A stretch of DNA of 49,175 nt from positions 1-49,175 of the forward strand of contig REEJ01000171.1 in assembly GCA_007695125.1 (NCBI GenBank), in the 5' to 3' direction. A program made the translations under genes and the position numbers. The notes beneath the pieces are model-generated. The model was not told the DNA's origin. It made no database searches and saw only the letters and a program-made list of their open reading frames with translations. This document shows positions 430 through 35,485 of the stretch, one piece after another (the first letter of the stretch is position 1; each line of letters opens with the position of its first letter). The DNA is from Trueperaceae bacterium. Lineage in GTDB: Bacteria; Deinococcota; Deinococci; Deinococcales; Trueperaceae.

Positions 430-1839
430 TCAGCGGCTGGGCGCCAGGCTCCAGGCCTCGCATCGCACGACGCGCGCCTCTCCCCCGACGGCCGTCAGCG
501 CCACGCGATCGACCGCAGGCCCCTCGGGGTAGACGCGGGTGGTGAGCGCATGGCGGTCGTCGGCGATCAGCTCGAGCACCGAGCTGTCGAGGTAGAGGTG
601 CATCTCGACGCGCTCGAGCGGCTCGCCGGGCAGGCCCAGCGGAGCGCTGTCGACGGCGTACTCGGCGCCGTGCGGGCCCTTCGCGTGGCGCGTGTCGACG
701 ATCAAGCGCTTCGTCCGCCAGGCGATGAGCACGTCGGTGTGTTCGGCCTCGCTGTGCTGCAGACGCAGGCCGGATACGGCCGCGGTGCCGCGCTCGAGCG
801 TCAAGCGGAGCTCGAGGGCCGAACCCCCGACGTCGAGCTCGACGCGGTCGCGCACGTCGACGGCGTCGAGCCGCGCGGGCTCGCCGGTTCGCAACGCCGT
901 CAGTTCCGGTACGAAACGCTGTCGCACCTCGTCGTCCTCGAACGTGAGGACCCGTGGCAGCGACATCACGCCCGCCCACGTGCCGTTCGCGCCTTCGACG
1001 GAGCGTTGCTCCTGGAGCCACCCCCACATCAACCGACGTCCGCGGTCGTCTTCCGTCGTCAGCGGGGCGTAGAAGCAGCGGTAGCCCCAATCCAGGCGCT
1101 GCCTCCGCTCGGGGTGGAAGCGCCGGTCGCGATACGTGCCGATGAGCACGTTCGGGTAGGTGAGCTCGGACCGTTGCCAGCGCGATACCAGCAGCAGGTG
1201 CGCGCCACCTACGGTGACGAAGTTGGGACACTCCCAGATCTGTCCAGTGTCGTCGCACACCGGCTCGGCGTGCTCGGGGACGAAGGGGTGCAGGTACGTC
1301 CAGGTGCGCAGGTCGCCGCTGCGGTAGAGCAGGGCCTGCCCGACGCCGCCCAGCGACGTCCCGACCAGCGCATACCAGGCGTCGCTCTCACGCCACACGA
1401 AGGGGTCGCGGTACGCCTCGAGCGTGTGTTCGTACAGCGACTCGGGCACGCGCGCGACGGGATTGTCGCCCAGTTTGCGCCAGCGGACCAGGTCGTCGGA
1501 GCCGAGGGCGACGGAGGTGGCTTGCACGCCGTCGCGCACGCCGGTGTAGAGGATCGTCGGCGTGCCGGCATCGATCACCAGGCAACCCGACCAGCAACCG
1601 CCATCGTCTGCCGGCGGCATGTCGGGCGTGATGGCGACCGGGAGGTGCTCCCAGTGGACCAGGTCGTCGCTGACCGCGTGGCCCCAGTGCGGAGGCGCCC
1701 AGCGCGGCGCCAGCGGGTTGTGCTGGTAGAAGACGTGGTAGCGACCGCGCCACTGGACGACGCCGTTCGGGTCGTTCATCCAGCCGGACGCTGGCTGCAG
1801 GTGATAGCGCGGACGGTGGCGATCGGAGACGAGGCTCAC
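430..1839 (-). CDS. Glycoside hydrolase family 32 (beta-fructosidase / sucrose-6-phosphate hydrolase type)
   Basis: WMNDPNGVVQWRGRYHVFYQHNP, YRDPFVW and WECPNFV motifs; GTG start at 1839 overlaps the upstream permease stop (GTGA). Confidence 0.93.
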   Translation of the reverse strand: MSLVSDRHRPRYHLQPASGWMNDPNGVVQWRGRYHVFYQHNPLAPRWAPPHWGHAVSDDLVHWEHLPVAITPDMPPADDGGCWSGCLVIDAGTPTILYTGVRDGVQATSVALGSDDLVRWRKLGDNPVARVPESLYEHTLEAYRDPFVWRESDAWYALVGTSLGGVGQALLYRSGDLRTWTYLHPFVPEHAEPVCDDTGQIWECPNFVTVGGAHLLLVSRWQRSELTYPNVLIGTYRDRRFHPERRQRLDWGYRCFYAPLTTEDDRGRRLMWGWLQEQRSVEGANGTWAGVMSLPRVLTFEDDEVRQRFVPELTALRTGEPARLDAVDVRDRVELDVGGSALELRLTLERGTAAVSGLRLQHSEAEHTDVLIAWRTKRLIVDTRHAKGPHGAEYAVDSAPLGLPGEPLERVEMHLYLDSSVLELIADDRHALTTRVYPEGPAVDRVALTAVGGEARVVRCEAWSLAPSR

Positions 1840-2720
1840 CCCTTGACCCCCGAGGCGGCGATCGACTCGATGAAGGCGCGCTGCAGCAGCAGGTAGAACA
1901 CCAGCACCGGGATGGTGATGAGCGACAGGTAGGCCATCACCTCGCCCCAGGCGACGTTGAGCTGGAAGAAGTACTGCAAGCCCACCATCACCGGACGGTA
2001 CGTCTCGCCTTGCGCGACCATGAGCGGCCAGAGGTACATGTTGTACATCGCCAGGAACTTCAGGATCGCGGCGGTGGCGAAGACCGGCCCCGACAGCGGC
2101 ACGATCACACGCAGGTAGACCTGCCACCACGAGGCGCCGTCGATACGAGCGGCCTCGATGATCTCGTCCGGGAGGTCCTTGAAGAACTGCACGAACAGGA
2201 AGATCGAGAGCGCGTCGGCGATGAACGGCACGATCTGGACGCGGTAGCTGTTGAGCCAGCCGAAGGTCAGACCGTCGGGGCCGAGCCACGGCAGCGCGTT
2301 GACCATCATCAAGAGCGGTACCGCGATGGTCTCGAACGGCACGATGAGGGTCGCGATGACGACGGAGAGGACGATCGCACGGCCGCGCCAGCGCAGCTTC
2401 GCGAAGGCGAAGCCGGCGAGCGAATTGAGGAAGAGCCCGAACATCACCGTGAGACCGGTGACGAGCACACTGTTGTACACGAAGCGACCGATCGGTGCTC
2501 GCTTGAAAGCGGCGACGTAGTTGTCCAGCGAGATGTCGCCGACGGGCAAGAAGGCACGGAGCGAACCGGTGTCGCGCAGGAGCTGCAGGTCGGGCTTGAG
2601 CGACGAGACGACCATGAACACGACCGGGAACACGAAGACCAGCGCGACCGCGATCAGCAGAGCGTAGCGCCAGGCCACGCGGTAGCGCTCGTTGCGGGCA
2701 CCGACCATGCGCCCACTCAT
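1836..2720 (-). CDS. Carbohydrate ABC transporter permease (MalG-like)
   Basis: Six-TM permease with EAARIDGASWWQVYLRVIVPLSGP EAA-loop motif. Confidence 0.93.
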   Translation of the reverse strand: MSGRMVGARNERYRVAWRYALLIAVALVFVFPVVFMVVSSLKPDLQLLRDTGSLRAFLPVGDISLDNYVAAFKRAPIGRFVYNSVLVTGLTVMFGLFLNSLAGFAFAKLRWRGRAIVLSVVIATLIVPFETIAVPLLMMVNALPWLGPDGLTFGWLNSYRVQIVPFIADALSIFLFVQFFKDLPDEIIEAARIDGASWWQVYLRVIVPLSGPVFATAAILKFLAMYNMYLWPLMVAQGETYRPVMVGLQYFFQLNVAWGEVMAYLSLITIPVLVFYLLLQRAFIESIAASGVKG

Positions 2721-3853
2721 CGCGCGCGCTCCCGGGTCACGTAGCGCTGCAGCAGCGACACGGAGAGCACCAGCAGGAACAGCACGACCGAGATGGCTGA
2801 GCCGCCCGCGATGTCCTGGCGCTCGAAGCCGCGCTGCACCGCCTGGAAGACGATCGATTGGGTCGCATCACGCGGCCCACCGCGTGTCATGACATCGATC
2901 TGCGCGAAGAGCGCGAAGGCCTGCATGGTGATCACCACGAGGATCAGCACGGCCGTGTTGCGCAAACCCGGCCAGGTGACGTGTCGGAACTTCTGCAAGG
3001 CGCTGGCGCCCTCGACCGACGCCGCCTCGTACAGCACACCTGGGATGGTCTGGAGACCGGACAACCAGATCACCATGTGGAAGCCGACGGCCTGCCAGAT
3101 CGACATGGCCATGATGGCGCCGAGCGCGGTGTTCGGGTTGCCGAGCCAGTCGACCGGCGTGAAGGCGCCGAAGGTGAGCCCCGTGAGCATGGAGTTGAGC
3201 AACCCGCCCGGGCTGTAGATGAAGCGCCACAGCAACGACACGACGACGATCGAGATGACGACGGGCATGAAATAGATGGTGCGGAAGATGTTGACGCCCC
3301 GCAGACGCTGGTTGATCATCAGCGCCAGCATCAACGCCAAGGTGGCTTGTGTCGGAGCGACGACGAGCACGAAGAGCATGGTGTTGCGTAGCGCGCGCAT
3401 GAACACCACGTCGCTGGCGAGGAGGTAGAGCCGTCGCTCACCGAGTTGCCAGGAGGCGAGCTCGCGCAGGCCGTCGAACTGCGGGTAGTCGGGGTTGCGG
3501 CGGGTGATGTCGCGCAACACCGGATAGACGGGTGCGCCGGTGTCGTCGCGGAGCGTGGCGCCGGACTCGGGATCGGTGAGCGGCGCCATCATGAAGGGCC
3601 TGACGGTGAGCAGCTGGGTGAAGTTGCGGGTGCCGACGAACGCCGTCGGGTTGGGCGACACGAGGCGCTGGTTGGTGAACGCCATGACGAACGCCAAGGC
3701 GAAGGGGGTGATCAGGAAGGCCACCAGCAGGATGACCGCGGGCGCGGCCATCGCCAGACCGGCCGCCTCCTCACCGCGGCGGCCCGGGCCCAGACCGCTC
3801 GCCGCGGCTTGCCGAACGAGCTCCGGGACGGGCTTCACCGGGATCCTGTGCAT
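2717..3853 (-). CDS. Carbohydrate ABC transporter permease (MalF-like)
   Basis: YEAASVEGASALQKFRHVTWPGLRNT EAA-loop motif; internal ATG at 3853 preferred over the 3910 start. Confidence 0.92.
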   Translation of the reverse strand: MHRIPVKPVPELVRQAAASGLGPGRRGEEAAGLAMAAPAVILLVAFLITPFALAFVMAFTNQRLVSPNPTAFVGTRNFTQLLTVRPFMMAPLTDPESGATLRDDTGAPVYPVLRDITRRNPDYPQFDGLRELASWQLGERRLYLLASDVVFMRALRNTMLFVLVVAPTQATLALMLALMINQRLRGVNIFRTIYFMPVVISIVVVSLLWRFIYSPGGLLNSMLTGLTFGAFTPVDWLGNPNTALGAIMAMSIWQAVGFHMVIWLSGLQTIPGVLYEAASVEGASALQKFRHVTWPGLRNTAVLILVVITMQAFALFAQIDVMTRGGPRDATQSIVFQAVQRGFERQDIAGGSAISVVLFLLVLSVSLLQRYVTRERAR

Positions 3854-3878
3854 CGCGCTCTCGGTCTCCTCTCGCTCG

Positions 3879-3906
3879 GGTGTGGCCCCCGCTGGGGGGC
3901 CACACC
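3879..3906 (-). other. Perfect 12-bp-stem intercistronic hairpin between binding-protein and permease genes
   Basis: GGTGTGGCCCCC-gctg-GGGGGCCACACC, fully complementary arms. Confidence 0.9.
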
Positions 3907-3958
3907 GCACACGAAGGTGTCGCGGGCGTGCGGACGCGCGCCGCGAGCCGAACTCAGC

Positions 3959-5221
3959 TCAGAAGCCGTAGCCGTCGTTGTTGGCGATGTCGCGCTCGAT
4001 CTCGTCGACGGCCGCGTCGAGCGCGTCCTGCACGTCGGCGCCGTTGGCGATGTCGGCCAGCGCCTTCTCGAAGGTCAGCGCGATGCCCACGTACGCCGGG
4101 GTCGGCGGGCGGATCAGCGACTGCTGGTTGCTCAGCTCGTAGAACACCTCGAGCGGTCCGCCCTCACCGTAGTTCTGGGTCATGGCGGCGGCGGAGACGG
4201 TCGACGGGACGAGGCCGATGCCGTCGCTGAAGGCGGCGAGGTACTCGTCTTGCAGGGCGAACTCGATGAAGGCGTTGGCGCCCTCGGGGTGCTGGGTGGT
4301 CGCCGAGACGCCGAACTGCCAGGAAGCGCCGCCGATCTTGGGACCGTGGCCGAAGTCGGGCGCCGGCAGGAAGAGGAGGTCGTCGCCGAAGGCCTCGAGG
4401 GCGGGGATGGCGGCCCAGTTGCCGTTCCACTGCAGCGCGTAACGCCCGTCGAGGAAGCCGGTCTCGCGATCGGCGTCGTCCTGCGACGTGCCTGGGGTCA
4501 GGCCGCGCGTGAAGAGGCTCTGCCACCAGTTGCCGAAGGCCACGGCCTCGGGGCCGTTCAGGACCCCTTCGGCGGTGAGGAAGGTGCTGCGGTCGATCAG
4601 GTCGCCACCGAAGCTCTGCAGGAAGGGCGAGAAGGCGTAGGGGTACCACTCTCCGGTCCACGCCATGCCGACGTCGAACGCGTAGTCGAACTCGCCGGTC
4701 GCGTCGAGCGTCTCGAGGATGGCGTCGAACTCCTCGAACGTCCAGGGCGCGTCGAGGCTGGGGATGCGGATGTCGTTCGCTTCGAGCACCGAGCGCCGGG
4801 CGTAGATCGCGATCGCCGCGTCCCACAGGCCCACCGAGTAGACCTCGCCCTGCCACTCGCCGATCACGCTGGGCAGGAAGCCATCGAGCACACCGTCCGA
4901 CAGGCTCAACGGTTGCATGTAGTTGGCCCAGGCCCAGTTGGGCATCACGGGACCGTCGACGTCGAGGATGTCGGGCAGGTTGCCGGCGAGCGCGGCGGAG
5001 ACGACCGAGGGGTTGTAGGCGAGTTGGGGGAACTCCTCGAGCGTGACGCGCCAGTCGTCTTGCGCGGCGTTGAAGTCGTCGATGATCTGGACGATGATCG
5101 CTCGCTCGACCTCGTTGCCGGCGCCGTGGTACCAGAGGCTCAGGGTGGTCTGCGCGAACACGACGCCGCTCAGTGCGAGGGCGGCGAGCAGCGCTGTGAG
5201 GGACCGCTTCGTCGTTGTCAT
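3959..5221 (-). CDS. Extracellular sugar-binding protein of ABC transporter
   Basis: Signal peptide MTTTKRSLTALLAALALSGVVFAQTTLSLWYHG; family-1 SBP features (LQWNGNWA, DVQDALDAA near C-terminus). Confidence 0.92.
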   Translation of the reverse strand: MTTTKRSLTALLAALALSGVVFAQTTLSLWYHGAGNEVERAIIVQIIDDFNAAQDDWRVTLEEFPQLAYNPSVVSAALAGNLPDILDVDGPVMPNWAWANYMQPLSLSDGVLDGFLPSVIGEWQGEVYSVGLWDAAIAIYARRSVLEANDIRIPSLDAPWTFEEFDAILETLDATGEFDYAFDVGMAWTGEWYPYAFSPFLQSFGGDLIDRSTFLTAEGVLNGPEAVAFGNWWQSLFTRGLTPGTSQDDADRETGFLDGRYALQWNGNWAAIPALEAFGDDLLFLPAPDFGHGPKIGGASWQFGVSATTQHPEGANAFIEFALQDEYLAAFSDGIGLVPSTVSAAAMTQNYGEGGPLEVFYELSNQQSLIRPPTPAYVGIALTFEKALADIANGADVQDALDAAVDEIERDIANNDGYGF

Positions 5222-5248
5222 GATGATTCCTCTCCGTTCTTTCGTAGC

Positions 5249-5272
5249 GATGCCGGCCAGCTGGCGGGCATC
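5249..5272 (-). other. Inverted repeat between lacI and the SBP gene
   Basis: gatgccGgccagctggcGggcatc; symmetrical with a single G/G mismatch pair. Confidence 0.7.
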
Positions 5273-5335
5273 GGGGCGACGGACCGAGGTGCTTTGGACC
5301 GTGTCGGACTCGAGCCATCAATCGGGTGCGTCCAG

Positions 5336-6385
5336 TCAGGACTCCTCTCCGGCGTCGCTCGCAGGCGCGCGTCCCACGGAGCCACGCTCGACGATCGGGC
5401 ACGGTAGGCGCCGCTGGGGTGGCGGACGATCCTCGCCCCAGGGTGCGGTCAGGAGGTGGTCGATGGCCCAGCGGCCCATGGCCGCGTGCGGCAGTGCCAT
5501 CGTCGTCAGGGCCGGGCGCAGGGCGTCGGCGATGTAGTGCTGGTCGTCGAACCCGACCACCGACACGTCACCGGGGACGCTGAGACCCACCTCGGTGAAC
5601 GCGAAGTAGGCGCCCATCGCCATGCGGTCGGTGCCGAAGAAGTACGCCGTGGGAGGGTCGTCGGCGTCGAGCAGGTCGTGCGCCCAGCGGTAGCCGCTGT
5701 CGGCGTTGCCCGACCCCTCCCGAACGAGCGCCTCGTCGAAGGGCACTCCGGCCTCGGCGAGTGCTTCCTTGTAGCCCTCGAGGCGCCCCACGGCTGCGGG
5801 GTAGCCGGTCGAGAGGACGTCGTTGGTGACCATGGCGATGCGTCGGTGTCCCTCCTCGAGCAGCCGCTCGGTGGCCTCGCGGCCGCCGCGCACCTCGTCG
5901 GGCACGACCGACGCGAAGTCCCGGTTGGGCGTGAAGCAGTCCACGAGCACGGTCGGGACTTCATGCAGCGCCTTCGGGACGTGGACCTCGTGGTGGAACA
6001 TGGCGGCGTAGACGATGCCCTCGACGCCGCGCTCGATCAGGTTGGCGACGGCCTGCTCGCGCACCCGGTCGTCACCGTCGGCGTCGATCACCATGAGCAT
6101 GCGATCGGCCTGACGGGCACGCGCCTGGGCGCCCTTGATGAGATCGTGCGCGAACGGCGTGGTGGTGACCTGATCGGTGAGGAACCCGAAGAGCTGGGAG
6201 CGCCCAGTGCGGATGTGGCGAGCGGCGAAGGTGGGACGGTAGCCGAGCTGCTCCATGACGGACTCGACCTTGGCCCGCGTCGCCTCGGCCACGTTGGGCC
6301 GCTCGTTCAGGACGCGCGAGACAGTCCCGACGCCGACGCCTGCGGCCTTGGCGATGTCGTGTATCGACGGCTTCTTCACTGCCAC
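5336..6385 (-). CDS. LacI family transcriptional regulator
   Basis: KKPSIHDIAKAAGVGVGTVSRVLNERPNVAEATRAKVESVMEQLGYRP HTH; periplasmic-binding-like C-terminus. Exact start may be GTG 6385 or 6379. Confidence 0.95.
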   Translation of the reverse strand: MAVKKPSIHDIAKAAGVGVGTVSRVLNERPNVAEATRAKVESVMEQLGYRPTFAARHIRTGRSQLFGFLTDQVTTTPFAHDLIKGAQARARQADRMLMVIDADGDDRVREQAVANLIERGVEGIVYAAMFHHEVHVPKALHEVPTVLVDCFTPNRDFASVVPDEVRGGREATERLLEEGHRRIAMVTNDVLSTGYPAAVGRLEGYKEALAEAGVPFDEALVREGSGNADSGYRWAHDLLDADDPPTAYFFGTDRMAMGAYFAFTEVGLSVPGDVSVVGFDDQHYIADALRPALTTMALPHAAMGRWAIDHLLTAPWGEDRPPPQRRLPCPIVERGSVGRAPASDAGEES

Positions 6386-13622: not shown

Positions 13623-15932
13623 CTACTCGCCCACGTACCAGCGAACCTGGTCGAGCATCGCCGAGCCCGCGCCACCGTCGATCGTCACGTCCAGGCCACG
13701 GACCTCGCGTCGCGTGAAGCCCTCGTCCGAGGCCCCTTCGGGTTGCTCGGCGGCACGCTCGAACGCGTCGAACGGGAGCCGTACGAGCGTCCAACCCTCG
13801 ACCTCGTCTTGGAACGAGGCCTCGAAACGTGCCGAGGTGTCGCGCTCCTGATAGATGCGGACGTAGTCGATGCGCATCTCCTGCGGGAACGTCGTCGTCT
13901 CGTCCGGGTACCCAGGCCAATGCCCGCCGACCGCCACGTTCAAGATCAGGAAGTGCGGGTGGTCGAACACCCAGCGCGCGCCGCGCGGCAGGTCTGCCGG
14001 CGTGATGGTCGAGTACTCGACCCCGTCGACCGACCAGGTGATGCGCTCGGGCGCCCAATCGATGGCGTAGACGTGGAAGTCGTCGGCGAACCGAGCGCCT
14101 TCGGGGTGCGTGAAGGCACGGCCGACGCTATCGCCGGCCGAGTAACCGGGTCCGTGGACTGTGCCGTGGACGGTCGACGGCTCACGGCCGATGTTCTCCA
14201 TGATGTCGATCTCGCCCGACTCGGGCCAGCCGACCTCGCCGATGTCGTTGCCGAGCGTCCAGAAGGCGGGCCAGAGGCCCTGGCCGTAGGGGATCTGCAG
14301 GCGGGCCTCGATGCGGCCGTAGGCCACCTCGAGCGCGCCCTGCGTGATGATGCGCGCCGAGGTGTACTCGCACGGCTCGCCGTAGTAGCACATCGGCGCG
14401 TCGCCGTGGGTCTCGAGCGCGCGGATCACCAGATGCCCATCGCCGTCGAGCGCCAGGTTCTCCGCGTCGCCGGTGTAGAACTGGCGCTCGGCGTTGCCCC
14501 AGCCGGGGATGCCGTTGGCCGTCCCGTCGCCGATCTCGGGCGTCCACACGCTCGGGTCGGGTGGCGAGCCCGCCGGCCCCTCGAACTCGTCCGACCACGA
14601 GAGCTCCCACGGACGCGTAGGGTCGCTGCCGTCGAGCAGCCGCACGTGCACGGTGCGGCCGCTGCCGTCGCCGTGGTACCAGAACTCGATGCCATCGGCG
14701 TGGCTGACGTCGACGCCCTGACCGAAACGCGCCTGGACCAGGCCACGCTCTGCCCACGTCATGCTCAACACCCGCTCGAAGGTGGCCTGGCGGGGCCGGG
14801 CGTCGGCGTCGCCGGCGAGCAGCTCGGGCGTCGCCACGCTCGTATCGGCGCCCGCTGCGAAGGAACCGGGTCCGTCACCGAAGTCCTCGACGAGGTCGGG
14901 GTCGAAGGGGTCGGCGTCGACGATGACCACCACGGCCTGGCGCTGGAACCCGAGTTCGGCGCCCTGCGGACCCTCGAGCTGCGCCTGCGCGCGCTGGTCG
15001 CCCGTGTGCCGGCGGTTCCTCAGCGCACGGACGCTCACGGCCGCCTCGGTCTCGCCGGGCTGGAACACCACCACCTCGTCGACTGGGACGAAGTCGCGCC
15101 CAGGCGTCGCCTCGTCGCCACGCACGAGCACCCGCACCGAGACCGGCTCGTCGCTGGGCCCAGAGAGCGCGAGACGCAGCTCACCACGCTCCTCCTCAGC
15201 GAGGCGCACGAGCGCGTCGGCGAACTCGACCGCGACGACGGCGGCAGCGGCCTCGACGCCCGACGAACCGTAGGCCTCGACACGCGCGACGTACGTCGTC
15301 CCCTCGCCCGATGGGAAACCGAGGGCCCAGCCCGAGGCCTCGTCGAGGCCCAACCCATCGTCCGGTGCCCCGCTGGGCTGAAAGTCCGTGCGGCGAGCGA
15401 ACGAGTCGAACGGGATCTCGACCAGCCGCCACTCGCTGGTGTCGTCGCTGAAGCGGTAGAACCAGCGCTCGGCGCTGTCGCCCGTCAGGTCCGGGTTGCG
15501 GTTGTCGAACAGGTCGACCTGGACGGTGTCGCCGTTGCCCGGGCCCTGGTACCAGAAGCGCAGGCCTTGGTACGGCGAGAGGTCGATCCCGATCCAGCGG
15601 GTCAGGGCGTCGTTAGCGAAGGCCTGCGTGAAACCGCCCCACGACGCGATGCGGTGATCGACGCGCAGCACATGCTCGGTGCCCACCTGATCGGGTAGCT
15701 CGAGCGGATCGCCGGGGTCGACGGCCACCGCGGAGAGCTCCAGCGCGCCGCCGCCGTCTTGCCAGGTCACGAAGCCGATGCCGTTGCCGAAGGCGTCGGT
15801 GCCGCTCGGCACACCGTCGCCGAGGTCTGCGAGCCGCAGGGCGGGCTCGTCCTGGGCCATCGCCAGCGCGACCAGGCCGGTCAGGGCGATCGCCACGAAG
15901 GGTGCAAGCAGGCTCGGGAAGCGTCTGGTCAT
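13623..15932 (-). CDS. Secreted multidomain GH16 beta-glucanase (laminarinase-type) with CBM-like and Calx-beta-like domains
   Basis: GH16 core WSDEFEG...YTSARIITQG...EARLQIPYGQGLWPAFWTLG...GEIDIMENIG (ExDxxE); Calx-beta-like segment with 'DFVPVDEVVVFQPGETEAAVSV'; two related CBM-like segments. Confidence 0.93.
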   Translation of the reverse strand: MTRRFPSLLAPFVAIALTGLVALAMAQDEPALRLADLGDGVPSGTDAFGNGIGFVTWQDGGGALELSAVAVDPGDPLELPDQVGTEHVLRVDHRIASWGGFTQAFANDALTRWIGIDLSPYQGLRFWYQGPGNGDTVQVDLFDNRNPDLTGDSAERWFYRFSDDTSEWRLVEIPFDSFARRTDFQPSGAPDDGLGLDEASGWALGFPSGEGTTYVARVEAYGSSGVEAAAAVVAVEFADALVRLAEEERGELRLALSGPSDEPVSVRVLVRGDEATPGRDFVPVDEVVVFQPGETEAAVSVRALRNRRHTGDQRAQAQLEGPQGAELGFQRQAVVVIVDADPFDPDLVEDFGDGPGSFAAGADTSVATPELLAGDADARPRQATFERVLSMTWAERGLVQARFGQGVDVSHADGIEFWYHGDGSGRTVHVRLLDGSDPTRPWELSWSDEFEGPAGSPPDPSVWTPEIGDGTANGIPGWGNAERQFYTGDAENLALDGDGHLVIRALETHGDAPMCYYGEPCEYTSARIITQGALEVAYGRIEARLQIPYGQGLWPAFWTLGNDIGEVGWPESGEIDIMENIGREPSTVHGTVHGPGYSAGDSVGRAFTHPEGARFADDFHVYAIDWAPERITWSVDGVEYSTITPADLPRGARWVFDHPHFLILNVAVGGHWPGYPDETTTFPQEMRIDYVRIYQERDTSARFEASFQDEVEGWTLVRLPFDAFERAAEQPEGASDEGFTRREVRGLDVTIDGGAGSAMLDQVRWYVGE

Positions 15933-17920
15933 GGGTGGTTCCTTCCACTGGCGGTGCGTGAGGGGTGCTCGGCAGCGCAATGGGCAGCGAGCGTGAGCCA
16001 CGGCGACACGTCCGTGGCGTCGCCGTAGCGCAGGCCGTACCCGCGCGGGAACAAGGGCGCGTCGCAACCGTCGGTCGGCAACGCGTCCAGATCGAAGGGC
16101 AGCTGCGCGACGCTGCGCGGCCAGGTGTACGGGAGGGTGCCGACGGCCTCGCGCTCCCCGAACAAGACGTCGGCGACGCCGTCGCCCTCGGAACCAGGCA
16201 GCCAGGCGGCGACGAAGGCGTCGGCCAGGTGCAGCTCATGCTCGATCACCAGCGGGCGGCCGGACACCAGCACCACGACCAGCGCGTCGACCCGAGCGCG
16301 CAACCGCTCGACCGCGATCGCATCGGCGAGGGAGAGTTCCAGCGTGGCGTCGTCTCCGAACCACTCGGCGTAGGGCACCTCGCCGACGACGGCGATGCCG
16401 AGCTCGGCGCGCTCCGGTGCCGCGTCGGCCCTCTCGAAGCGGCCGCGGGCATCGAAGTGCAGCGTGGTAGCGGGGCCGAAGCCGGTCCGGAGACCCTCGA
16501 GGATGGTGGTGCCCGGCGTCAGCGACGCGGTCGAGCCTTGCCACTCGATGGTCCAGCCGCCGGACTGCATGCCGATGCTGTCCGCGGCGGAGCCGACGAC
16601 GAGCACGGTCTGCGCGGCATCGGCGCGCAGCGGCAGCGCAGCGGCGTCGTTCTTGAGGACGACCAGCGTCTTCGCTACGGCCTCGCGCGCCAGCGCGCGG
16701 TGCTCGTCCGACCCGACCGACGCCTGCAGCGCATCGTCACCGAACGGCCGTTCGAACAGGCCGAGCTCGAACTTGACGCGCAGGATGTTGGCCACCGCCT
16801 CGTCGATGCGCTCCAGCGTGACGTCGCCGCGCTCCACGGCACGCAGCGTGGCCGCGATGAAGCGGCGGTGGTCGTACGGGACCATGTTCATGTCGACGCC
16901 GGCGGCGATCGAGAGGGCCACCGCCCGGTCGTAGTCCCGGGCGACGTCGTCGACGCCCGCCCAGTCCGAGACGACGAAGCCGTCGAAGCCGAGCTCGCCG
17001 CGCAACACGTCACGGAGCAAGTAGGAGTGCCCGTGCATCGGCAGCCCCTGCCAGCTGGAGAACGACACCATCACGCTGCGGGCGCCGTTCGCCACGGCGT
17101 CCACGTACGGTGCCAGGTGCACGCGACGCAGCGTGGCCTCGTCGACCAGGGTGTCGCCCCGGTCGAGCAGGCCGCCGGATATGGGCGAGGTGTTGAAGGC
17201 GGTGCCGCCGTCGCCCACGAAGTGCTTGGGCGTGGCGAGCACCGTGTCGGGTGCCGCCAGGTCGTCGCCCTGGAGGCCGCGCTGCGCGGCGAGCGCCAAG
17301 CGCGTGACCAGGTCCGGGTCCTCCCCGTAGCCTTCATAGGTGCGACCCCAGCGGATGTCGCGCGGCACCGCCAGGACCGGCGCGTAGTTCCAATGGATGC
17401 CGGTGGCGAGCATCTCGAGGGCGGTGGCACGCGAGATCGCCTCCACCAGGTCGGGATCGTCCGCCGCGCCGAGGCCGACGTTGTGCGGAAAGACCACCGC
17501 TCCCACCACGTTGGCGTGCCCGTGCACGGCATCGACGCCGTAGAGCAACGGGATGCCCAGGCGTGTGGCGAGCGCGGCCTCCTGGTACCCCCGCACCATC
17601 GCGGTCCACCCGGCGACGGTGTTGTCGCCGGGTGGGTAGCCACCCCCGCCGCTCAACACGGCGCCGATCGCGTAGCGCTCGACGTCGGCGGGGCCGATGC
17701 TGCCGCGCTCGATCAGCGTCATCTGGCCCACCTTCTCCTCGAGTGTCATGCGCTCGAGCAGGTCGGCGACGCGCTCGTCGATGCCCAGGGCCGGGTCGAG
17801 GTAGGCGGGCGGGGTGTCCTGGGCGGCGGCTGGCAGGGGTACGAGCGCGAGGAGCGCGACGAACCCGGCGATCGAAAGGGTCCTGACCGAGCGTGTGGCG
17901 AGCGACGGCCACCGCGTCAC
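15929..17920 (-). CDS. Secreted glycoside hydrolase family 3 (beta-glucosidase)
   Basis: RMTLEEKVGQMTLIERG...PLLYGVDAVHGHANVVGAVVFPHNVGLGA...GFVVSDWAGV (GH3 nucleophile motif SDW). Confidence 0.95.
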   Translation of the reverse strand: MTRWPSLATRSVRTLSIAGFVALLALVPLPAAAQDTPPAYLDPALGIDERVADLLERMTLEEKVGQMTLIERGSIGPADVERYAIGAVLSGGGGYPPGDNTVAGWTAMVRGYQEAALATRLGIPLLYGVDAVHGHANVVGAVVFPHNVGLGAADDPDLVEAISRATALEMLATGIHWNYAPVLAVPRDIRWGRTYEGYGEDPDLVTRLALAAQRGLQGDDLAAPDTVLATPKHFVGDGGTAFNTSPISGGLLDRGDTLVDEATLRRVHLAPYVDAVANGARSVMVSFSSWQGLPMHGHSYLLRDVLRGELGFDGFVVSDWAGVDDVARDYDRAVALSIAAGVDMNMVPYDHRRFIAATLRAVERGDVTLERIDEAVANILRVKFELGLFERPFGDDALQASVGSDEHRALAREAVAKTLVVLKNDAAALPLRADAAQTVLVVGSAADSIGMQSGGWTIEWQGSTASLTPGTTILEGLRTGFGPATTLHFDARGRFERADAAPERAELGIAVVGEVPYAEWFGDDATLELSLADAIAVERLRARVDALVVVLVSGRPLVIEHELHLADAFVAAWLPGSEGDGVADVLFGEREAVGTLPYTWPRSVAQLPFDLDALPTDGCDAPLFPRGYGLRYGDATDVSPWLTLAAHCAAEHPSRTASGRNHP

Positions 17921-20900
17921 GACGAGCGCCTGGAGTCAGCCGCGGGCACGGCCACCTCGATTCGCGCGACGGTCCCGGTGCGCCCGAACACCTCGCGGCT
18001 GGTGGCGTGGTCGAGGAAGGCCCCTTCGAACGCCTCGACGCTGCCGTCGCGAAGCACCGCCGAGACGCGCGCGTCGCCGGCGTCGAGCCGGTAGACCACC
18101 GGCACGTGGCACATGGTGAACGCCAGCGTGCCGCGCTCGAGCGACAGGTCCTCGTGACCCGCGTGGGTCGTGACGCGGGTCAGGGCGGGCTCGGCCAGGA
18201 ACTCCGTTCGCGGCAACAGCTCTGGGGCGAAGCCCAAGCGCCCCTCGCGCACCTCGACGCCGAGCTCTCCGAGCCGGGCCAGCACGTCCTCCTTGACCTG
18301 ACCCGTCATGCCCGGCTGCTGCGCTCCGGCGTGGGCCGGGGTGTGTGAGTAGGGGTCGAGTGGGACGGCGCCGAAGACCTCGGGCGGCTTGTGGAAGCCG
18401 AGGCCTGCGCGCACGTCGTGATATGCGGCCGCGAGCGCCGCGAGGCGTTCGTGCGGCTCTCCCGCCACCCGGGCACGCTGGTAAGCCTCCTGGACCGCGA
18501 GCAGCAGTTTCGACACCATGTGCCAGTAGATGCTGCCGAGCCCCTCGTACGCGAAGAAGGTGCCGGAGCGGCCCGTGAAGGCGTCATGGTCGAAGACCTC
18601 TTCGAAGGCGCGTGCGACGGCCGAGCCGTGCGCGTCGACGAGGTCGCGCCACGGCTCCTCGCGTGCGAGCTCGGCCAACGCGCGGCGGACGTCCTTGGCG
18701 TTGCGGAACGAGCCGTGGAAGTGCACGTCGCCCTGCTCGTCGCGCACCACGATGCGGCGGTCGCCTCGCTCGAGCAGGGCCGTGAGCAGCGGCGAGGCTG
18801 CCACGCGCTCCGGCGACAGGTGGTTCTTCTGCAAGAAGCCGGGCAGGTCGCGGTCGGGGTACAGCACGTAGCTGTGCTGGTCGGCGCGGTAGAGCGGCCC
18901 GTGCCGCAGGCTGTGCAGCAGCTCCAGGGCCTCCTCGGCCGAGAGCAGGCCGGACGACAGGATCGCGACCTGACCCTCGAGCATCTCGCTCAAGTGCCGC
19001 ACGCCCGCGCGGTCGTCCTCGAGGGCGAGGACGTTGTAGGAGTGGTAGAGCGCGTCGTCGCGGCGATTGGCGCGAAGCGTGTGCTCGAGGTACGCCTGGG
19101 CGAGCTCCAGCAGGCCAGCCACCGTCGCTCCAGGCACCTCGCTCCGCTCGCCCGAGAGGCCGCGCTCGTAGAGGCGCTCGCGGTAGGCGCTGCCGGCGGC
19201 GCCGAGGGCGTCCATGCAGACCCGCCGGCGGCGGTCGTCGAACACCCCTTCGAGCGCGTCCGCGTGCGCGCGCAGGGCGCCGTCGACGGCGCCGAGGAAG
19301 GTCGCGACCTCGCGTGAGACGCTGACGTCGCGGCCAGCCAGCAGGCCCTGCAAGAACACGACGCTGCGGTACAGGTAGGCGGTCGTGACGACCGAGAGTC
19401 CCCGACCCACGAGGGCGTTGTTGGCGTCGTTCCACTCGGGCCGCTGGGTGTTCATCCAGATGCCACCCTCGGGCACGAGGTTCGCGAGCTTGACGAGCAG
19501 CAGGAGCAGCAGCTTCTCGGCCATCGACACGTGGACGACGGCGCCGTCGCGGCCCATGACGAGCCGTGCGTCGGTGCCTCCGCTCGCCACGGCGGCGTCG
19601 ATGCGGCGGTGCCGTTCGTCGTCGAAGTGGATCGTGTCGTAGGGGTCGGCGAGCATGGCCTGGTAGGGGGCGATGCGGTAGGGGACGTCGGCGTGGCTGA
19701 AGACGCGCCGCTCCAGCAACGCCTCGAGCGCGGCCGGGTCGAAGCGCTGCGAGGTCTCGAGCAGCTTCTGGAGGTAGATGACCTGGTGGTCGCTCCAGTA
19801 CCCGATGTTGGCCCACGCATGCCCGGGCTCGGGGACCTCCCACTCGATCCCGTCGCGCGTGACGCGGTACGGGTTGTAGCCGTCGGCGGTGGTGGCGCCG
19901 AGGAACACCGTGACCATGCCGTTCACGAACCCTGGGAACGCGTACGCAAGCGCCTCCCAGTTCTGGAAGATGTCGCGCCAGTTCCCTTGGTAGTCGAGAC
20001 GGAGCCGGCCGGCCTCGTCGCGGACGTTGATGGTGAAGCGGTTCCAGGGGCGGCTGGGATCCCCGTGACGGCGGCTGAACGCGAGCGGCAGGTACGAGCG
20101 GCACAGCCGCTCCAGGTCGGCGGAGCCGCTGCCGGCGGCGTGCTCGACCAGCTCGGGGTACGTCAGCGTCTCGGGCAGGGCCGCCAGGAACGCTGCGTGC
20201 TCGGCGTACGCAGCGCGGTTGCGGGTCCGGATGAACGCCAGCAGGTCGTCGCGCTGCACCCGGTGGTCGTCGACGAACAGGCCGCCGCGCATGACGTTGA
20301 AGAGCACGCTGGCGAGGTGGTGGTCGGCGCTCGCCTGGTCGCCCGTCCACTGCAGGCCGTCTGCGCTCGCGACGAGCGCCTCGAGCGCGTCGGCGCTGCG
20401 CCGCAGGTCGTCCTCGACACGCCCCTCGAGCGCGCCTTCGTCACCTGCGAGCGCGTTCACCAGGGCGACGACGCGGGCGTGGTCCTGGGCGACGTCGGCG
20501 ACGAAGCGCCAGCGCCGCGTGGCGCCGGCCTCCAGCGCCACCTCGGCGTGGACGAGGAAGGCGCCGCGTCGACCACGGACGTCGGTCTCCTCGACCGGCG
20601 TGGCGCCGTGCCTGAACGCGTCGAGCTGGCGCGACGAGAGCAGCCGCCGCCCGCCGCTGAGCCCCAACGCGAAGACGGTGGTCGCCCGCAGCGACTCGCT
20701 CGGCTCGGCCAAGTCGGTGAGGATCGAGCTGAGCGTGAAGAGGCCTAGGCCGCTGCGCGGTTCGAGCTCGTTGCGCTTGTAGGCGTCGACCAGGTTGCTC
20801 ATGCCGGCCTGCATCGCCGCGCTCACGCCGCAGGGCAGCAGGTTCTGGAGGCCATCGACGACGTCGACGACGCAGCGCTCCGAGGCCGTCTCGGTGAGCC

Positions 20901-21390
20901 AGGCGGTGCGCACGAAGCCGAAGGCGTCGCTCCCCCGCCACTCGTACGCGAAGGTGAGCCCCAGATCGAGGTTGACCTCCTCGAACACGACGGCGTGACC
21001 GAGCACGCTCTTGGCGAGCGAACGCTCGACGCGGTAGACGCCGCGGCCCCGCTCTGAGAAGGGCTCCCACAGCGAGGTGTGGCCGCCGCGGCGCACCCGC
21101 AGCACCGTCTTCGGGCCGGTGTGCTCGACGCTCTCGAACAGCCGGTCCTGCGTCACGTAGGGGAACAGCGCCATGTCGGCGTCGACGCGGCCCGCCGTGA
21201 GACCGCCGGTGCTGGCAACGAACATCCACAGGTCCGAGGCGCCGAGGAGGCTCATCAGGAAGGGTGGCATGGCGTCGACGTTGCGGATGCGGTAGAAGCG
21301 CTCGCCACGCAGCGTGGCGTAGCCACCTTCGACCGGTGTGCCGGTCGGATGCTGCGGGCCGTGGCCAAGATGTATGACGGAGTAGGACAT
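17917..21390 (-). CDS. 1157-aa cytoplasmic protein of unassigned family; possible (alpha/alpha)6-barrel glycoside phosphorylase/hydrolase-like enzyme
   Basis: No signal peptide; first structural gene of a coupled operon with GH3 and GH16. Motifs NVDAMPPFLMSLLGASDLWMFVASTGGLTAGR, GNWRDIFQNWEALAYAFPGFVNGMVTVFLGATTADGYNPYRV, NIGYWSDHQVIYLQKLLE, DPYSHTPAHAGAQQPGMTGQVKED. Confidence 0.85.
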   Translation of the reverse strand: MSYSVIHLGHGPQHPTGTPVEGGYATLRGERFYRIRNVDAMPPFLMSLLGASDLWMFVASTGGLTAGRVDADMALFPYVTQDRLFESVEHTGPKTVLRVRRGGHTSLWEPFSERGRGVYRVERSLAKSVLGHAVVFEEVNLDLGLTFAYEWRGSDAFGFVRTAWLTETASERCVVDVVDGLQNLLPCGVSAAMQAGMSNLVDAYKRNELEPRSGLGLFTLSSILTDLAEPSESLRATTVFALGLSGGRRLLSSRQLDAFRHGATPVEETDVRGRRGAFLVHAEVALEAGATRRWRFVADVAQDHARVVALVNALAGDEGALEGRVEDDLRRSADALEALVASADGLQWTGDQASADHHLASVLFNVMRGGLFVDDHRVQRDDLLAFIRTRNRAAYAEHAAFLAALPETLTYPELVEHAAGSGSADLERLCRSYLPLAFSRRHGDPSRPWNRFTINVRDEAGRLRLDYQGNWRDIFQNWEALAYAFPGFVNGMVTVFLGATTADGYNPYRVTRDGIEWEVPEPGHAWANIGYWSDHQVIYLQKLLETSQRFDPAALEALLERRVFSHADVPYRIAPYQAMLADPYDTIHFDDERHRRIDAAVASGGTDARLVMGRDGAVVHVSMAEKLLLLLLVKLANLVPEGGIWMNTQRPEWNDANNALVGRGLSVVTTAYLYRSVVFLQGLLAGRDVSVSREVATFLGAVDGALRAHADALEGVFDDRRRRVCMDALGAAGSAYRERLYERGLSGERSEVPGATVAGLLELAQAYLEHTLRANRRDDALYHSYNVLALEDDRAGVRHLSEMLEGQVAILSSGLLSAEEALELLHSLRHGPLYRADQHSYVLYPDRDLPGFLQKNHLSPERVAASPLLTALLERGDRRIVVRDEQGDVHFHGSFRNAKDVRRALAELAREEPWRDLVDAHGSAVARAFEEVFDHDAFTGRSGTFFAYEGLGSIYWHMVSKLLLAVQEAYQRARVAGEPHERLAALAAAYHDVRAGLGFHKPPEVFGAVPLDPYSHTPAHAGAQQPGMTGQVKEDVLARLGELGVEVREGRLGFAPELLPRTEFLAEPALTRVTTHAGHEDLSLERGTLAFTMCHVPVVYRLDAGDARVSAVLRDGSVEAFEGAFLDHATSREVFGRTGTVARIEVAVPAADSRRSS

Positions 21391-21474
21391 GGTCGTGGTG
21401 ATACCTCCGTGGTGGTGCGAGGCGGGAGGAACGCGGCGGCCGAGCCGGGGATCGGGGTGGTCCCGATCGTTCGA

Positions 21475-22479
21475 TCAGCGCACAGCGCTCGCGACCGATT
21501 GCCGCTCGACCAGTTCCGGGTCGAACCGGTGCACGACCTCCCTCCGCTCGCCGTCGAGGCGTTCGAGCAACAGATCGGCGGCGGCTCGTCCCATCTCGAC
21601 CAGCGGCTGCCGGACCGTGGTCAGGGTCGGCGTCAGATAGCGCGCCAGGAAGACGTCGTCGTAGCCGATGATGGAGATGTCGTCGGGGACCGCATGCCCT
21701 GTCTCTCGCAGGGTGCGCATCGCTCCGGCCGCCATCTGATCGTTGGCGACGAAGATGGCGGTCAGGTCGGGGGCGCGCTCGAGCAGATGTGCCGCCGCCT
21801 CGGCTCCCCCCTCTTCGAGGAAGGTGGACTCGACCACGTAGCGGTCATCGAAGGCGATCCCAGCCGCCACCAGGGCGCGGCGGTAGCCCATCAGGCGGTC
21901 ACGGGCGTCGGCGTAGGAGAGCGGTCCGGCGATGTGCCCGATGTGGCGGTGACCGTGGCGCAGCAAGTGCTCCGTCGCCAGCGAGCCACCGAGTTCGTTG
22001 TCCAAGACGACGCATGACGAGCCGATCTCGGCGACGCTTCGACCGAACACGACGACGGGCGTGTCGCCGTCTCGTGCCAACTCGATGAGCGCTTCGTCGT
22101 CGAGGGCGTCGGACTGGACGATCAGGCCATCGCAGCGGCGTTCGAGCAGGAAGTCGACGGAGGCTCGCTCGAGCGCTGCGGTGGCGTAACCGCTCGACAC
22201 CATCATGTGGATGCCCTCGGCCCGCACGACCTGTTCGACGCCACGGATGAAGGCGCCGAAGTAGGGGCTCGAGATCTCGTTGACGGTGACGCCGATGCCA
22301 CCGGAGCGGTTGGTGGCGAGGCCGCGCGCGAAGGCGTTGGGCTTGAAGCCGAGCGTGGCGATGGCTGCGAGGACGCGTTCACGGGTCGGGTGCGCAACCG
22401 TGGAGGCTCCGTTGAGGACGCGCGATACGGTGGCGATCGACACGCCGGCCAGCCGTGAGACTTCGCGGATCGTTGCCAT
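21475..22479 (-). CDS. LacI family transcriptional regulator
   Basis: MATIREVSRLAGVSIATVSRVLNGASTVAHPTRERVLAAIATLGFKPNAFARGL. Confidence 0.95.
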   Translation of the reverse strand: MATIREVSRLAGVSIATVSRVLNGASTVAHPTRERVLAAIATLGFKPNAFARGLATNRSGGIGVTVNEISSPYFGAFIRGVEQVVRAEGIHMMVSSGYATAALERASVDFLLERRCDGLIVQSDALDDEALIELARDGDTPVVVFGRSVAEIGSSCVVLDNELGGSLATEHLLRHGHRHIGHIAGPLSYADARDRLMGYRRALVAAGIAFDDRYVVESTFLEEGGAEAAAHLLERAPDLTAIFVANDQMAAGAMRTLRETGHAVPDDISIIGYDDVFLARYLTPTLTTVRQPLVEMGRAAADLLLERLDGERREVVHRFDPELVERQSVASAVR

Positions 22480-22534: not shown

Positions 22535-22581
22535 TGTAACCGGTTTCAGGAAAGCGTAGCACCCGCCCGCATCAGCGTCAA
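22535..22581 (-). promoter_or_regulatory. Promoter plus LacI-type operator for the beta-glucan operon
   Basis: Minus strand TTGACG (22576-22581), 17 bp, TACGCT (22553-22558), then operator TGAAACCGGTTACA (22535-22548). Confidence 0.75.
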
Positions 22582-27029: not shown

Positions 27030-28958
27030 ATGACCCATCTGCCCCTTCCCACCGTCAGCCTCACGCCCGAGCGCGGCGCCCTGCCGCGGGCCGGCGGCCG
27101 CGTCGACGCCCTCCTGCGCATCGAGGTCGGCGTGCCAGGCGTCGAGCGCAACCGCGAGGCCGTCACCCTGGCGCTCGTGATCGACCGCTCCGGATCGATG
27201 GGAGGCGAGCCCCTCGCCTACGCCAAGCGCGCCGCGCAGCAGGCGCTCACGGTGTTGCAACCCGGCGACGCCGTCGCGGTCGTCGCGTTCGACAACCACG
27301 TCGGGGTCGTCGTCCCGACCGTCGTCGTGCACGACGACCTCTCGGCGGTGCACGAGGCGATCGAGCACATCGGCGTCGGCGGCTCGACGGCGCTGCACGC
27401 CGGCTGGGTCGAGGGCCTCACGCAAGCGCTCGAGCTGGAGCATGCGTCGGGCATGGCGCGCGTCGTGCTCCTGTCGGACGGCTGCGCCAACGTCGGCGAG
27501 ACCAGGTCCGAGGCGATCGCCGCCGACGTCGCCAAGGCGTTCGCCGACCACGGCGTCTCCACCAGCGCCGTCGGCCTCGGCGCGCACTTCGACGAGCGCC
27601 TCATGAGCGCCATCAGCACGGCTGGGGGCGGCACGTTCACGTTCGTCGAGACACCCCAGCAGCTCCCAGAGCTCTTCGAGACCGAGATCGCCAGCCTGTC
27701 GTCGCTGCGCGGCCGCAACGTGCGGCTGGCGTTCGACGGCGCCGCCGCGCGCTTCGTCGCCGCCGGCGGTGGGGCGCGTCTGGACGCGGGGCGCATCGGC
27801 TTCCCCGACCTCGTCGGCGGCATGCCGCGCGACGTGCTCGTGACGATCGAGCTCGATGCCCACTCCGCGCTGCCGCCGCTGCGCCTCTCGTGGGACGACA
27901 CCTACACGGGCGCGCACGAGACGCTCGACGTCACGCTCGACCTGCCACTGCTCGATCCCGACGCGCTCGCCGCCCGAGCCGTCGACCCGGCCGTGGCAGC
28001 CGCGCAGCGCAGACACGCCTACGCCGACGCCGTCGGCCGCGTCGAGCCACTCGTTCGTGGCGGCCGCTTCGACGACGCCGAGCGCGAGATCAACTCGCTG
28101 CGCGCACAGGTCGACTCGTGGCCCGCCGACGCGTCGCGGGATGAGAGCCTCCGGGACCTGGCGCAGCTGCTCGAGCGGAGCCGCGCACGCGACCACGCCA
28201 TGAGCGCGAAGGTCGCGCACCGCATGAAGTACCACCTCGACATGGACGTGGGGTCCTCGAAGCGCGCCTCGATGCTCGACGCCGAGCGCGGCCTCCGCTC
28301 CGCCAAGCAGGCGTACCGGCAAGCGGCGTCCAGCACGTCGAGGCCAGCGCGGACCACCGACGCGTCGGCAGGCCGCACGCCGATGCGGCCGGCGCGCACC
28401 GTCCATCAGGCCGAGGTCGCCCACCAGGGTGGCGGCACCACGCGCCTCGAGGTCGTGATCGGTGACATCACGCAGCAGACGGCGGACGCGATCGTCAACC
28501 CGAGCAACCGGGGCCTGTTCGGTACCGCCGGCGTCGACGGCGCAGTGCACGCCATGGGCGGCCCCGAACTCACCGCCGCCTGTCGCGCGATCGGCGGCAT
28601 CGACTACGGCCAGGCCACCGTCACCCCCGGCTTCCGGCTGGCGGCGACGCACGTGATCCACACCACCACGCCGCGTTGGCGGGGCGGCGACGGCGGCGAA
28701 CTCGCCACCCTCGAACGCGCCTACGCGGCCTGCCTCGACGCCGCCCGGCGCCTGCGTGTCCACACGCTCGCCATCCCCGCCATCGGCACGGGCGCGTTCC
28801 GCTACCCGCTCGACCAGGCCACCGCGGTGGCGGTCGCGGCGGTGGTCGCCGCGGTCACGAAGCACGAGGTGCCAGCGGTGGTGCGCTTCGTGGTGCTCGA
28901 CGAGGGCCTGGCGAACACGTACGCGCGGGAGCTCGACGCGGCGCTGGCCGCGGTCTAG
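27030..28958 (+). CDS. VWA domain - macro domain fusion protein
   Basis: VWA with MIDAS: VIDRSGSMGG (DxSxS), GGSTAL, LLSDGCANVG; C-terminal macro domain: RLEVVIGDITQQTADAIVNPSNRGLFGTAGVDGAVHAMGGPEL...IPAIGTGAFRYPLDQA. Confidence 0.93.
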   Translation: MTHLPLPTVSLTPERGALPRAGGRVDALLRIEVGVPGVERNREAVTLALVIDRSGSMGGEPLAYAKRAAQQALTVLQPGDAVAVVAFDNHVGVVVPTVVVHDDLSAVHEAIEHIGVGGSTALHAGWVEGLTQALELEHASGMARVVLLSDGCANVGETRSEAIAADVAKAFADHGVSTSAVGLGAHFDERLMSAISTAGGGTFTFVETPQQLPELFETEIASLSSLRGRNVRLAFDGAAARFVAAGGGARLDAGRIGFPDLVGGMPRDVLVTIELDAHSALPPLRLSWDDTYTGAHETLDVTLDLPLLDPDALAARAVDPAVAAAQRRHAYADAVGRVEPLVRGGRFDDAEREINSLRAQVDSWPADASRDESLRDLAQLLERSRARDHAMSAKVAHRMKYHLDMDVGSSKRASMLDAERGLRSAKQAYRQAASSTSRPARTTDASAGRTPMRPARTVHQAEVAHQGGGTTRLEVVIGDITQQTADAIVNPSNRGLFGTAGVDGAVHAMGGPELTAACRAIGGIDYGQATVTPGFRLAATHVIHTTTPRWRGGDGGELATLERAYAACLDAARRLRVHTLAIPAIGTGAFRYPLDQATAVAVAAVVAAVTKHEVPAVVRFVVLDEGLANTYARELDAALAAV

Positions 28959-33058: not shown

Positions 33059-35485
33059 CTATCCGAACCGCATCGGCGTGCAGACGCCGGCAATCCGGTT
33101 GCACGCCGACGGGACCCAGTCCGTGGCCATCGAAGCGATCATCAGCCCCGTGCCGGCCCCTAGGTCGAGCGCGATCATCAACCCGAGCGCACCGATGCCG
33201 AAACCGGCCGCGAGAGCGGCCCCGAGGCCGACGAACGCTCCGGTGATGACGACACCCTCGACCACGCAGCAGGCGTAACCGCGGGCGCTCCCGGCGGCGG
33301 CGCAACTGGACAGCGTCCGGGTCCCGGCCAGGATCAGGCCGGCCGCCATGAGCTGCTGGCTCGCGTTCAGCGTGAGCAGGTACTCCACGAACCCCTTCCC
33401 GCGCCCGTCGTCTCCGACACCCAACGTCTCACCCGTCACCGGATCGCTGCGCCACCATCCCGCGAAGCGGCCCCCATCGGGCACGCTCACCGGCGTGACG
33501 ACGGCGAACCCCGCCGCGAGATCCGCGGCGATCGCACGCCGCGATCGCTCGGGGAGGTCGAGCCGTGCGGCGGCCTCGACGTCGCCCGGTGCCAGCGTAC
33601 GGATCTCGACGCCCTCCCGCTGCGCGGCCTCGAAGACGGTGAACGTGTTCCACTCGGCGGCATCGGGGCGGACGATCGGCAGGCCCTCGGTTCGCGTCTC
33701 CCACACCCCGATCGTGCGCGCGGCAGCGGGCGCGAGGCGCGGCAGTCCAGGCTGAGCGACGTCGAGGACGACCTTTCGGTTCTGGACGACGTCGACCACG
33801 GCATGGCTGCCGTCCCACGCACGTTCGACGACGACGAGCGACGGCACCGCCCGGTAGGCGAGCACGTCGTCCGGGATCGGAGCGGCGTCGAACGCGGCGT
33901 ACAACTGGAGCAGGTCGAGCGAGCGAGCCGACTCGGCCACCTCTTCGGGCAGCTCGGCATCTGCCGCCAGTTCGACGCCGGCATCGAAGATGCTCTCGAG
34001 GAGCGGCTGTGAGGCGATTGACGAGGCGAGCTGGGCGTCCAGGACGAAGGCGTCAGCGTAACGACCAGGCGCGACCATGAAGGTGTGCGACCGCAGCATG
34101 GCGTCGGCCACGTCTGCGGCGCTGACCTCCGGGTCGACCTCGACGATCCCGGCGGCGCGCCGCTCGGTGCCGACGCGATCGACGATCGTGCGCGTGTGCG
34201 TCGTCTCGCGACCACCGGGCTCGATCAGCGTGTACTCGATCCACTGTGCGGTCAGCGTGACGAAGTCGTCCGGATCGGCTTCGCCCGCCAGTGCGCCCGC
34301 CGCCGTCCCGAAAAGCCCACCCGTCGCCCGGACGACGCCGGCCGCCTGGTCCATCGCGACGTCAGGCGCGAGGCTGTTCCCGTTCAGGTCGAAGGCGAGC
34401 GCGCCGGGCGCGAACTCGCTCTGCATGAACGGCGTGAAGAACGTTGTCGCCTCGAGGACCGCCTCCGTGTCGGTCGGGTCGTCCACGTCCATGAGGCCGT
34501 CGGGCATGTTGACGAGGGTCACGGCTCGCCCGTAGATCGACACGGCGGGTCGCTCCCACGGATCGGTCACGGGAGAGACGATCAGCTCGTGACCGCGCCG
34601 CTGCTCGATGAACACCTGCACGCGTACCCTGTGCACGAGCTCTTCGGGCACGACGTCGTCGAGGTGGCCCTCCACGTCGAGGGACTCGGGCGCCTCGCCC
34701 TCCGGGAACGCCGGATGTGCCTGTTCCCACGCTCCGCCGAAGCCGTACTCGACCCACGTGTAGGCGCGCGTCGCCTCGACCAAGGCGTCGACGACCCCGT
34801 CGGCAGCGTCCGCGTTCACGCCGATGCGTCCGCCGAGCATGTCGGTGACGTCTTCGAGCTCGCGCTGGAGTTCGCCCAGGATCGCCTGGCCCTCGCCGGC
34901 GGCTCGGCCCATGTCGGATCCGTCGAGCCCGAACGAGCGGGTGAATGCCTCGAAGGACGCGTCGTCCGGCAAGGCCGAGCGCAGGTCTTCGGTCCGGGCC
35001 ATGCTCGCAACCAGCCTCTCGGCGTCGGCCCGACCGATGCGCCCCTGGCCGAGCCGGACGTCGTAGCCCGCGCTCGTGAGCAGCGTGCTCGCGAGCAGCG
35101 CCTGGTCCATCGCGTTCGCGCTGCCACCGACGAGGGCGCCTTGCGCCCCACGCAACACACCGTCATAGGCCTCGAACGCGATCGAGTCTCGGACGAAGGC
35201 GGTGATCTCTCCTGCTTCGGCGAAAGCGAGCTCGAAGGCGAGCGCCTCGACGTCGATCGCGGTCCGGTCGATGCTGGCGCGCAACGCAGCGAACTCGGCC
35301 ATGGCGCCTCGCATCGCCTCGCGCGCCTCGTGCGGTTCGACGGCGGCGAACGCCACGCCGCCGCCCGGCACGCCCGGCACCAGCGCGACGAGCGCCAGCG
35401 AGACGACGGCGACGAGGGTCTGCCGCAGGGCGCGCCAGAGGCGGCGGCCAACCGGATGATCGGGACGTGGTTGATGACGGGGCAT
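33059..35485 (-). CDS. Large secreted protein with transglutaminase-like domain and C-terminal hydrophobic region
   Basis: Signal segment LVAVVSLALVALVPGVPGGGVAFA; VRDSIAFEAYDGVLRGAQGALVGGSANAMDQALLASTLLTSAGYDVRLGQGRI resembles transglutaminase-like cores; C-terminal glycine-rich TM segments. Confidence 0.75.
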   Translation of the reverse strand: MPRHQPRPDHPVGRRLWRALRQTLVAVVSLALVALVPGVPGGGVAFAAVEPHEAREAMRGAMAEFAALRASIDRTAIDVEALAFELAFAEAGEITAFVRDSIAFEAYDGVLRGAQGALVGGSANAMDQALLASTLLTSAGYDVRLGQGRIGRADAERLVASMARTEDLRSALPDDASFEAFTRSFGLDGSDMGRAAGEGQAILGELQRELEDVTDMLGGRIGVNADAADGVVDALVEATRAYTWVEYGFGGAWEQAHPAFPEGEAPESLDVEGHLDDVVPEELVHRVRVQVFIEQRRGHELIVSPVTDPWERPAVSIYGRAVTLVNMPDGLMDVDDPTDTEAVLEATTFFTPFMQSEFAPGALAFDLNGNSLAPDVAMDQAAGVVRATGGLFGTAAGALAGEADPDDFVTLTAQWIEYTLIEPGGRETTHTRTIVDRVGTERRAAGIVEVDPEVSAADVADAMLRSHTFMVAPGRYADAFVLDAQLASSIASQPLLESIFDAGVELAADAELPEEVAESARSLDLLQLYAAFDAAPIPDDVLAYRAVPSLVVVERAWDGSHAVVDVVQNRKVVLDVAQPGLPRLAPAAARTIGVWETRTEGLPIVRPDAAEWNTFTVFEAAQREGVEIRTLAPGDVEAAARLDLPERSRRAIAADLAAGFAVVTPVSVPDGGRFAGWWRSDPVTGETLGVGDDGRGKGFVEYLLTLNASQQLMAAGLILAGTRTLSSCAAAGSARGYACCVVEGVVITGAFVGLGAALAAGFGIGALGLMIALDLGAGTGLMIASMATDWVPSACNRIAGVCTPMRFG

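Follow-up and report, generated by a model that had tools for sequence, protein, structure and literature searches.

The window, by which we mean the whole 49,175-nucleotide stretch of Trueperaceae DNA analyzed here (71% GC), carries a run of genes in the order lacI-GH149-GH3-GH16, with a predicted operator upstream of lacI (Table 1). The GH149 gene is an intact ORF of 1157 codons that begins with ATG. Its GC content is 0.93 at third codon positions versus 0.47 at second positions, a pattern typical for real genes in this DNA, and it is a real gene. The N-terminus of its product, MSYSVIHLGHGPQHP, reads as lacking a hydrophobic signal segment. The initial annotation had described a protein without a signal peptide, encoded by the first structural gene before genes for secreted GH3 and GH16 enzymes, and our results agree: GH149 is the first enzyme gene in the run, and the GH3 and GH16 genes lie downstream. 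The gene overlaps described there need one correction. The GH149 and GH3 genes do overlap by four bases (17920-17917), but these bases are GTGA, with GTG as the GH3 start; the ATGA belongs to the GH3/GH16 junction (15932-15929), where the ATG of GH16 overlaps the stop of GH3.

Table 1. Features of the lacI-GH149-GH3-GH16 locus, with the basis for each call.
Feature	Position	Strand	Basis and remarks
LacI-type operator palindrome TGTAACCGGTTTCA	22535..22548	.	14-base near-palindrome upstream of lacI; predicted
LacI/GalR-family regulator	21475..22479	-	Pfam LacI + Peripla_BP_3; directly upstream of GH149
GH149 beta-1,3-glucan (oligosaccharide) phosphorylase gene, specificity predicted	17917..21390	-	1157 aa; NF058639, phmmer PDB, residue mapping
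Secreted GH3 exo-beta-glucanase/beta-glucosidase	15929..17920	-	663 aa, GTG start; PF00933 1e-71, PF01915 1e-34
Secreted GH16 laminarinase-type endo-beta-1,3-glucanase	13623..15932	-	769 aa; PF00722 1.5e-26, PF03425

The GH3 and GH16 proteins both have Pfam matches and, read by eye from the sequence, signal-peptide-like segments at their starts. The solved structures nearest to the GH3 protein are beta-glucosidase 5M6G and the barley beta-D-glucan exohydrolase ExoI, and the PDB matches of the GH16 protein are beta-1,3-glucanases (3.8e-89). In the GH16 protein, the catalytic domain (about 441-697) appears to interrupt a CBM11-like domain, whose two parts lie at about 330-438 and 698-766. In an internal BLAST comparison, a first CBM11-like copy (27-235) matched the stretch before the GH16 domain (E 4e-9) as well as the stretch after it (E 1e-10). 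Alignments of the GH16 protein to L002, L004, L012, and L108 are full-length or both-sided, and the data suggest that the nested CBM11/GH16 layout is common to Deinococcota, Chloroflexota, and Actinomycetota. A literature search for this split architecture returned nothing relevant.

The 1157-aa protein had initially been called “unassigned,” a label that does not survive a full-length match to the curated NCBIfam model NF058639 (1,3-beta-D-glucan phosphorylase, GH149 family; equivalog). The match scored 1515.8 bits, relative to a curated cutoff of 1150 bits, and covered residues 19-1148 and model positions 4-1133 of 1134. In a phmmer search, the top PDB match was the GH149 enzyme Pro_7066 (6HQ6/6HQ8; 1110 bits, residues 25-1153), with 44% identity over 1123 aligned residues, nearly the full length. 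The alignment to 6HQ6 is continuous apart from short gaps, and it spans both Dom 1 (370-428) and Dom 2 (852-938), which are extra domains within the GH149 catalytic domain that are missing in GH94; both appear to be present in the 1157-aa protein. A Pfam-A search of this protein returned no matching model, the sole match being SHOCT-like and below threshold. Because Pfam has no GH149 model, the protein can appear unassigned, and the case illustrates that a curated NCBIfam model may already exist for a gene that Pfam misses.

The HMM and structure-database searches that the initial annotation had proposed thus identified GH149 and neither of the other two families it had named. Neither Pfam nor NCBIfam gave a match to a GH94 family model at E values up to 10, which rules out GH94 membership. 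GH161 phosphorylases (PDB 9H8V and 9QQK; PapP) belong to the same clan, GH-Q, and show weak local similarity that includes the region of the catalytic Asp, but the phmmer score against PDB was only about 59 bits in three patches, in comparison to 1110 bits for GH149, and GH161 membership is likewise ruled out. PapP cannot use glucose as an acceptor (PMC6484121).

The active site of Pro_7066 comprises W651-N652-D653, of which D653 is the predicted catalytic residue, together with R470-D471, E951, and H959; the R470-D471 (RD) motif functions in sugar 1-phosphate recognition, and H959 is predicted to recognize phosphate (PMC6771811). When mapped with a chain offset of 19, Pro_7066 residues R470, D471, W651, N652, D653, E951, and H959 correspond to R472, D473, W653, N654, D655, E949, and H957, identical at 7/7 positions. 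The motifs that the first reading of the sequence had failed to recognize are therefore all present: a WND loop (W653-N654-D655) with predicted catalytic Asp D655, an RD motif (R472-D473), and a predicted phosphate-site His (H957). All seven residues are invariant in 88/88 other aligned GH149 rows, among them the acidic residues D473, D655, and E949, the kind of residues that had been proposed for mapping.

The surface laminarihexaose-binding site of Pro_7066 sets the two proteins apart, with 0/8 of its residues kept in the 1157-aa protein (K831R, E838A, Y841H, E982H, E990A, Y993H, E994D, and R1062P). Six of these eight positions vary widely across the 88 GH149 rows, and the other two vary conservatively (K831 to K/R and E994 to E/D). 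Since the positions vary among GH149 rows, we read the replacements as lineage variation and not as an argument against membership; judged from the alignment, the surface oligosaccharide-binding site is not a family-defining feature of GH149.

A new phosphorylase or hydrolase family had also been proposed, and the lack of a matching Pfam-A model would fit such a proposal. It is ruled out by the NF058639 match, by a solved GH149 homologue that aligns across nearly the whole length, and by the kept active-site residues, and we assign it a negligible probability; clear membership in a characterized CAZy family is the outcome that the initial annotation itself had named as speaking against it. Its broader suggestion, a phosphorylase of the GH94/GH149/GH161 type that would act on laminari-oligosaccharides within the cell, gains support from membership in GH149. 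We conclude, with a probability of about 0.95, that the 1157-aa protein is a GH149 beta-1,3-glucan phosphorylase, its predicted specificity being read from the family. The genes next to GH149 are predicted to encode beta-1,3-glucan enzymes, a context that favors this assignment.

GH149 was found in 11 of the 61 genomes searched (the window's own and those of its genus, family, and order), and all 11 fall within the window's family. The closest named record is from a Trueperaceae MAG (L002; 76% identical), and a member of the same genus (G004) is 96% identical. In the phylogenetic tree, window-type GH149s group with those of Chloroflexota and Actinomycetota; Pro_7066 falls in a separate Bacteroidota clade. 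GH149 genes adjoining GH16, GH3, LacI, and ABC permease genes recur in Deinococcota, Chloroflexota, and Actinomycetota. The order in G031/L106, from the same family, is lacI-solute-binding protein-permease-permease-GH149-GH3-GH3, and that in L002 is permease-permease-GH149-GH3-GH3-GH9-GH16. A literature search for laminarin use by Trueperaceae returned nothing relevant. As a separate observation, a GH149 gene from a MAG assigned to Brockarchaeota (L020) groups with Acidobacteriota in the tree; either archaea acquired the gene by transfer or the contig was misbinned. The GH149 hosts in the 2018 family paper were bacteria and Euglenophyta only (PMC5827456).

The separation of this clade from Pro_7066 could mean that, in Deinococcota, Chloroflexota, and Actinomycetota, an enzyme of the same clan and with the GH149 fold has come to act on a different linkage or acceptor, such as beta-1,4 or mixed-linkage oligosaccharides. 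The GH9 encoded in the L002 operon, which has a cellulase N-terminal domain (CelD_N), points the same way, as does the report that, when working in the synthetic direction, Pro_7066 accepts disaccharides with other beta-linkages (PMC6484121). Such drift is nonetheless very improbable in our estimation, given that the published active-site residues are all retained, that the NF058639 score lies far over the equivalog cutoff, and that the neighboring GH16 is closest to beta-1,3-glucanases. A shift within the clade in chain-length or linkage preference, toward short laminari-oligosaccharides or mixed-linkage glucan, seems unlikely but less so; the surface laminarihexaose site is missing from at least the window's member. 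If it were true, the clade would represent a functionally distinct GH149 subfamily. The cited GH149 literature describes only two enzymes of the family as characterized, and because acceptor length preference differs even between EgP1 and Pro_7066, it cannot be read from the sequence.

Returning to the favored assignment, a beta-1,3-glucan phosphorylase, we note that the window operon lacks the importer genes that flank GH149 in close relatives. G004 keeps both permeases directly upstream of GH149; collinearity with its operon ends at 21438 (junction 21438-21475), and in the window the end of lacI occupies the place that ABC importer genes take in relatives. A search of the rest of the window's genome assembly (about 90% complete) yielded no importer orthologue, just distant paralogues with 37% protein identity and short DNA matches at best; importers of other Trueperaceae operons are 79-94% identical to one another. 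The absence is due to either a recent deletion or an assembly shortcut. A separate sugar ABC transporter (two permeases and a solute-binding protein) with its own LacI is encoded at 1836-6385 on the minus strand. Its permeases are about 27% identical to those of L002 and are not orthologous to the GH149-flanking importer.

The lacI gene ends 84 bases from GH149 and is likely the first gene of the transcription unit. Its product is 75% identical to the LacI that heads the GH149 operon in G031/L106. The palindrome TGTAACCGGTTTCA would be expected 0 times by chance in the window, and across the genome assembly this site is its only exact occurrence. In the same-genus genome G001 (L118), an identical site precedes the gene for a LacI with 86% identity, and a two-mismatch version lies upstream of the L106 lacI. 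A genome-wide search for a second exact site found none, and no unlinked transporter was linked to the regulon. It is likely, on the evidence of this site, that lacI-GH149-GH3-GH16 is autoregulated as a single unit.

We infer the substrate, uptake, reaction direction, and regulation as follows. Extracellular GH16 would cut laminarin-type beta-1,3-glucan into oligosaccharides, which GH3 would trim, and the laminari-oligosaccharides would then be imported into the cytoplasm. There, GH149 would use inorganic phosphate, with inversion and with D655 as the general acid, to split a laminari-oligosaccharide, releasing alpha-glucose 1-phosphate and leaving a shorter chain; characterized GH149 phosphorolysis yields alpha-glucose 1-phosphate from oligosaccharides of at least two glucoses (PMC5827456, PMC6484121). 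A phosphoglucomutase would pass the glucose 1-phosphate into glycolysis, and proteins with the PGM_PMM_I domain (phosphoglucomutase/phosphomannomutase family) are encoded in the window's genome. Control of the four genes probably lies with a LacI-type repressor that binds the one operator, upstream of lacI itself.

The enzyme is of a known kind and its mechanism is likewise familiar. A 2018 paper had already reported GH149 genes clustered with those for LacI regulators, ABC transporters, GH16, and GH3 (PMC5827456). Type I GH149 clusters (LacI or AraC, an ABC transporter, and GH149; PMC5827456) share with the window a LacI gene adjoining GH149; ABC permease genes adjoin GH149 in the close relatives of the window operon but are absent from the window itself. 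Type I clusters lack an extracellular laminarinase, whereas the window operon has secreted GH16 and GH3, and the Type I transporter is of a different class (COG0747/0601/1173, oligopeptide-type) (PMC5827456). Among characterized enzymes, Pro_7066 (PMC5827456, PMC6771811) is the one compared residue by residue above, and the likeness to Euglena gracilis EgP1, the GH149 founder (PMC5827456), is that of the CAZy family, by name; EgP1 is eukaryotic and has an N-terminal extension, unlike the window protein. These results extend a rarely characterized phosphorylase family to the Trueperaceae (Deinococcota), in a clade that is uncharacterized in the cited GH149 literature and that could be an enzyme source for beta-1,3-glucan synthesis.

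Nothing relevant to the GH149 operon came out of Rfam and tRNA searches of the window. A tRNA-Leu(gag) was called at 33516-33607 (minus strand) within an 808-aa ORF without a Pfam match (33059-35485, minus strand), and one of these two overlapping predictions is probably an artifact. The gene at 27030-28958 (plus strand) encodes a protein with a Macro domain at its C-terminus, preceded by a von Willebrand A domain, an unusual-looking combination.
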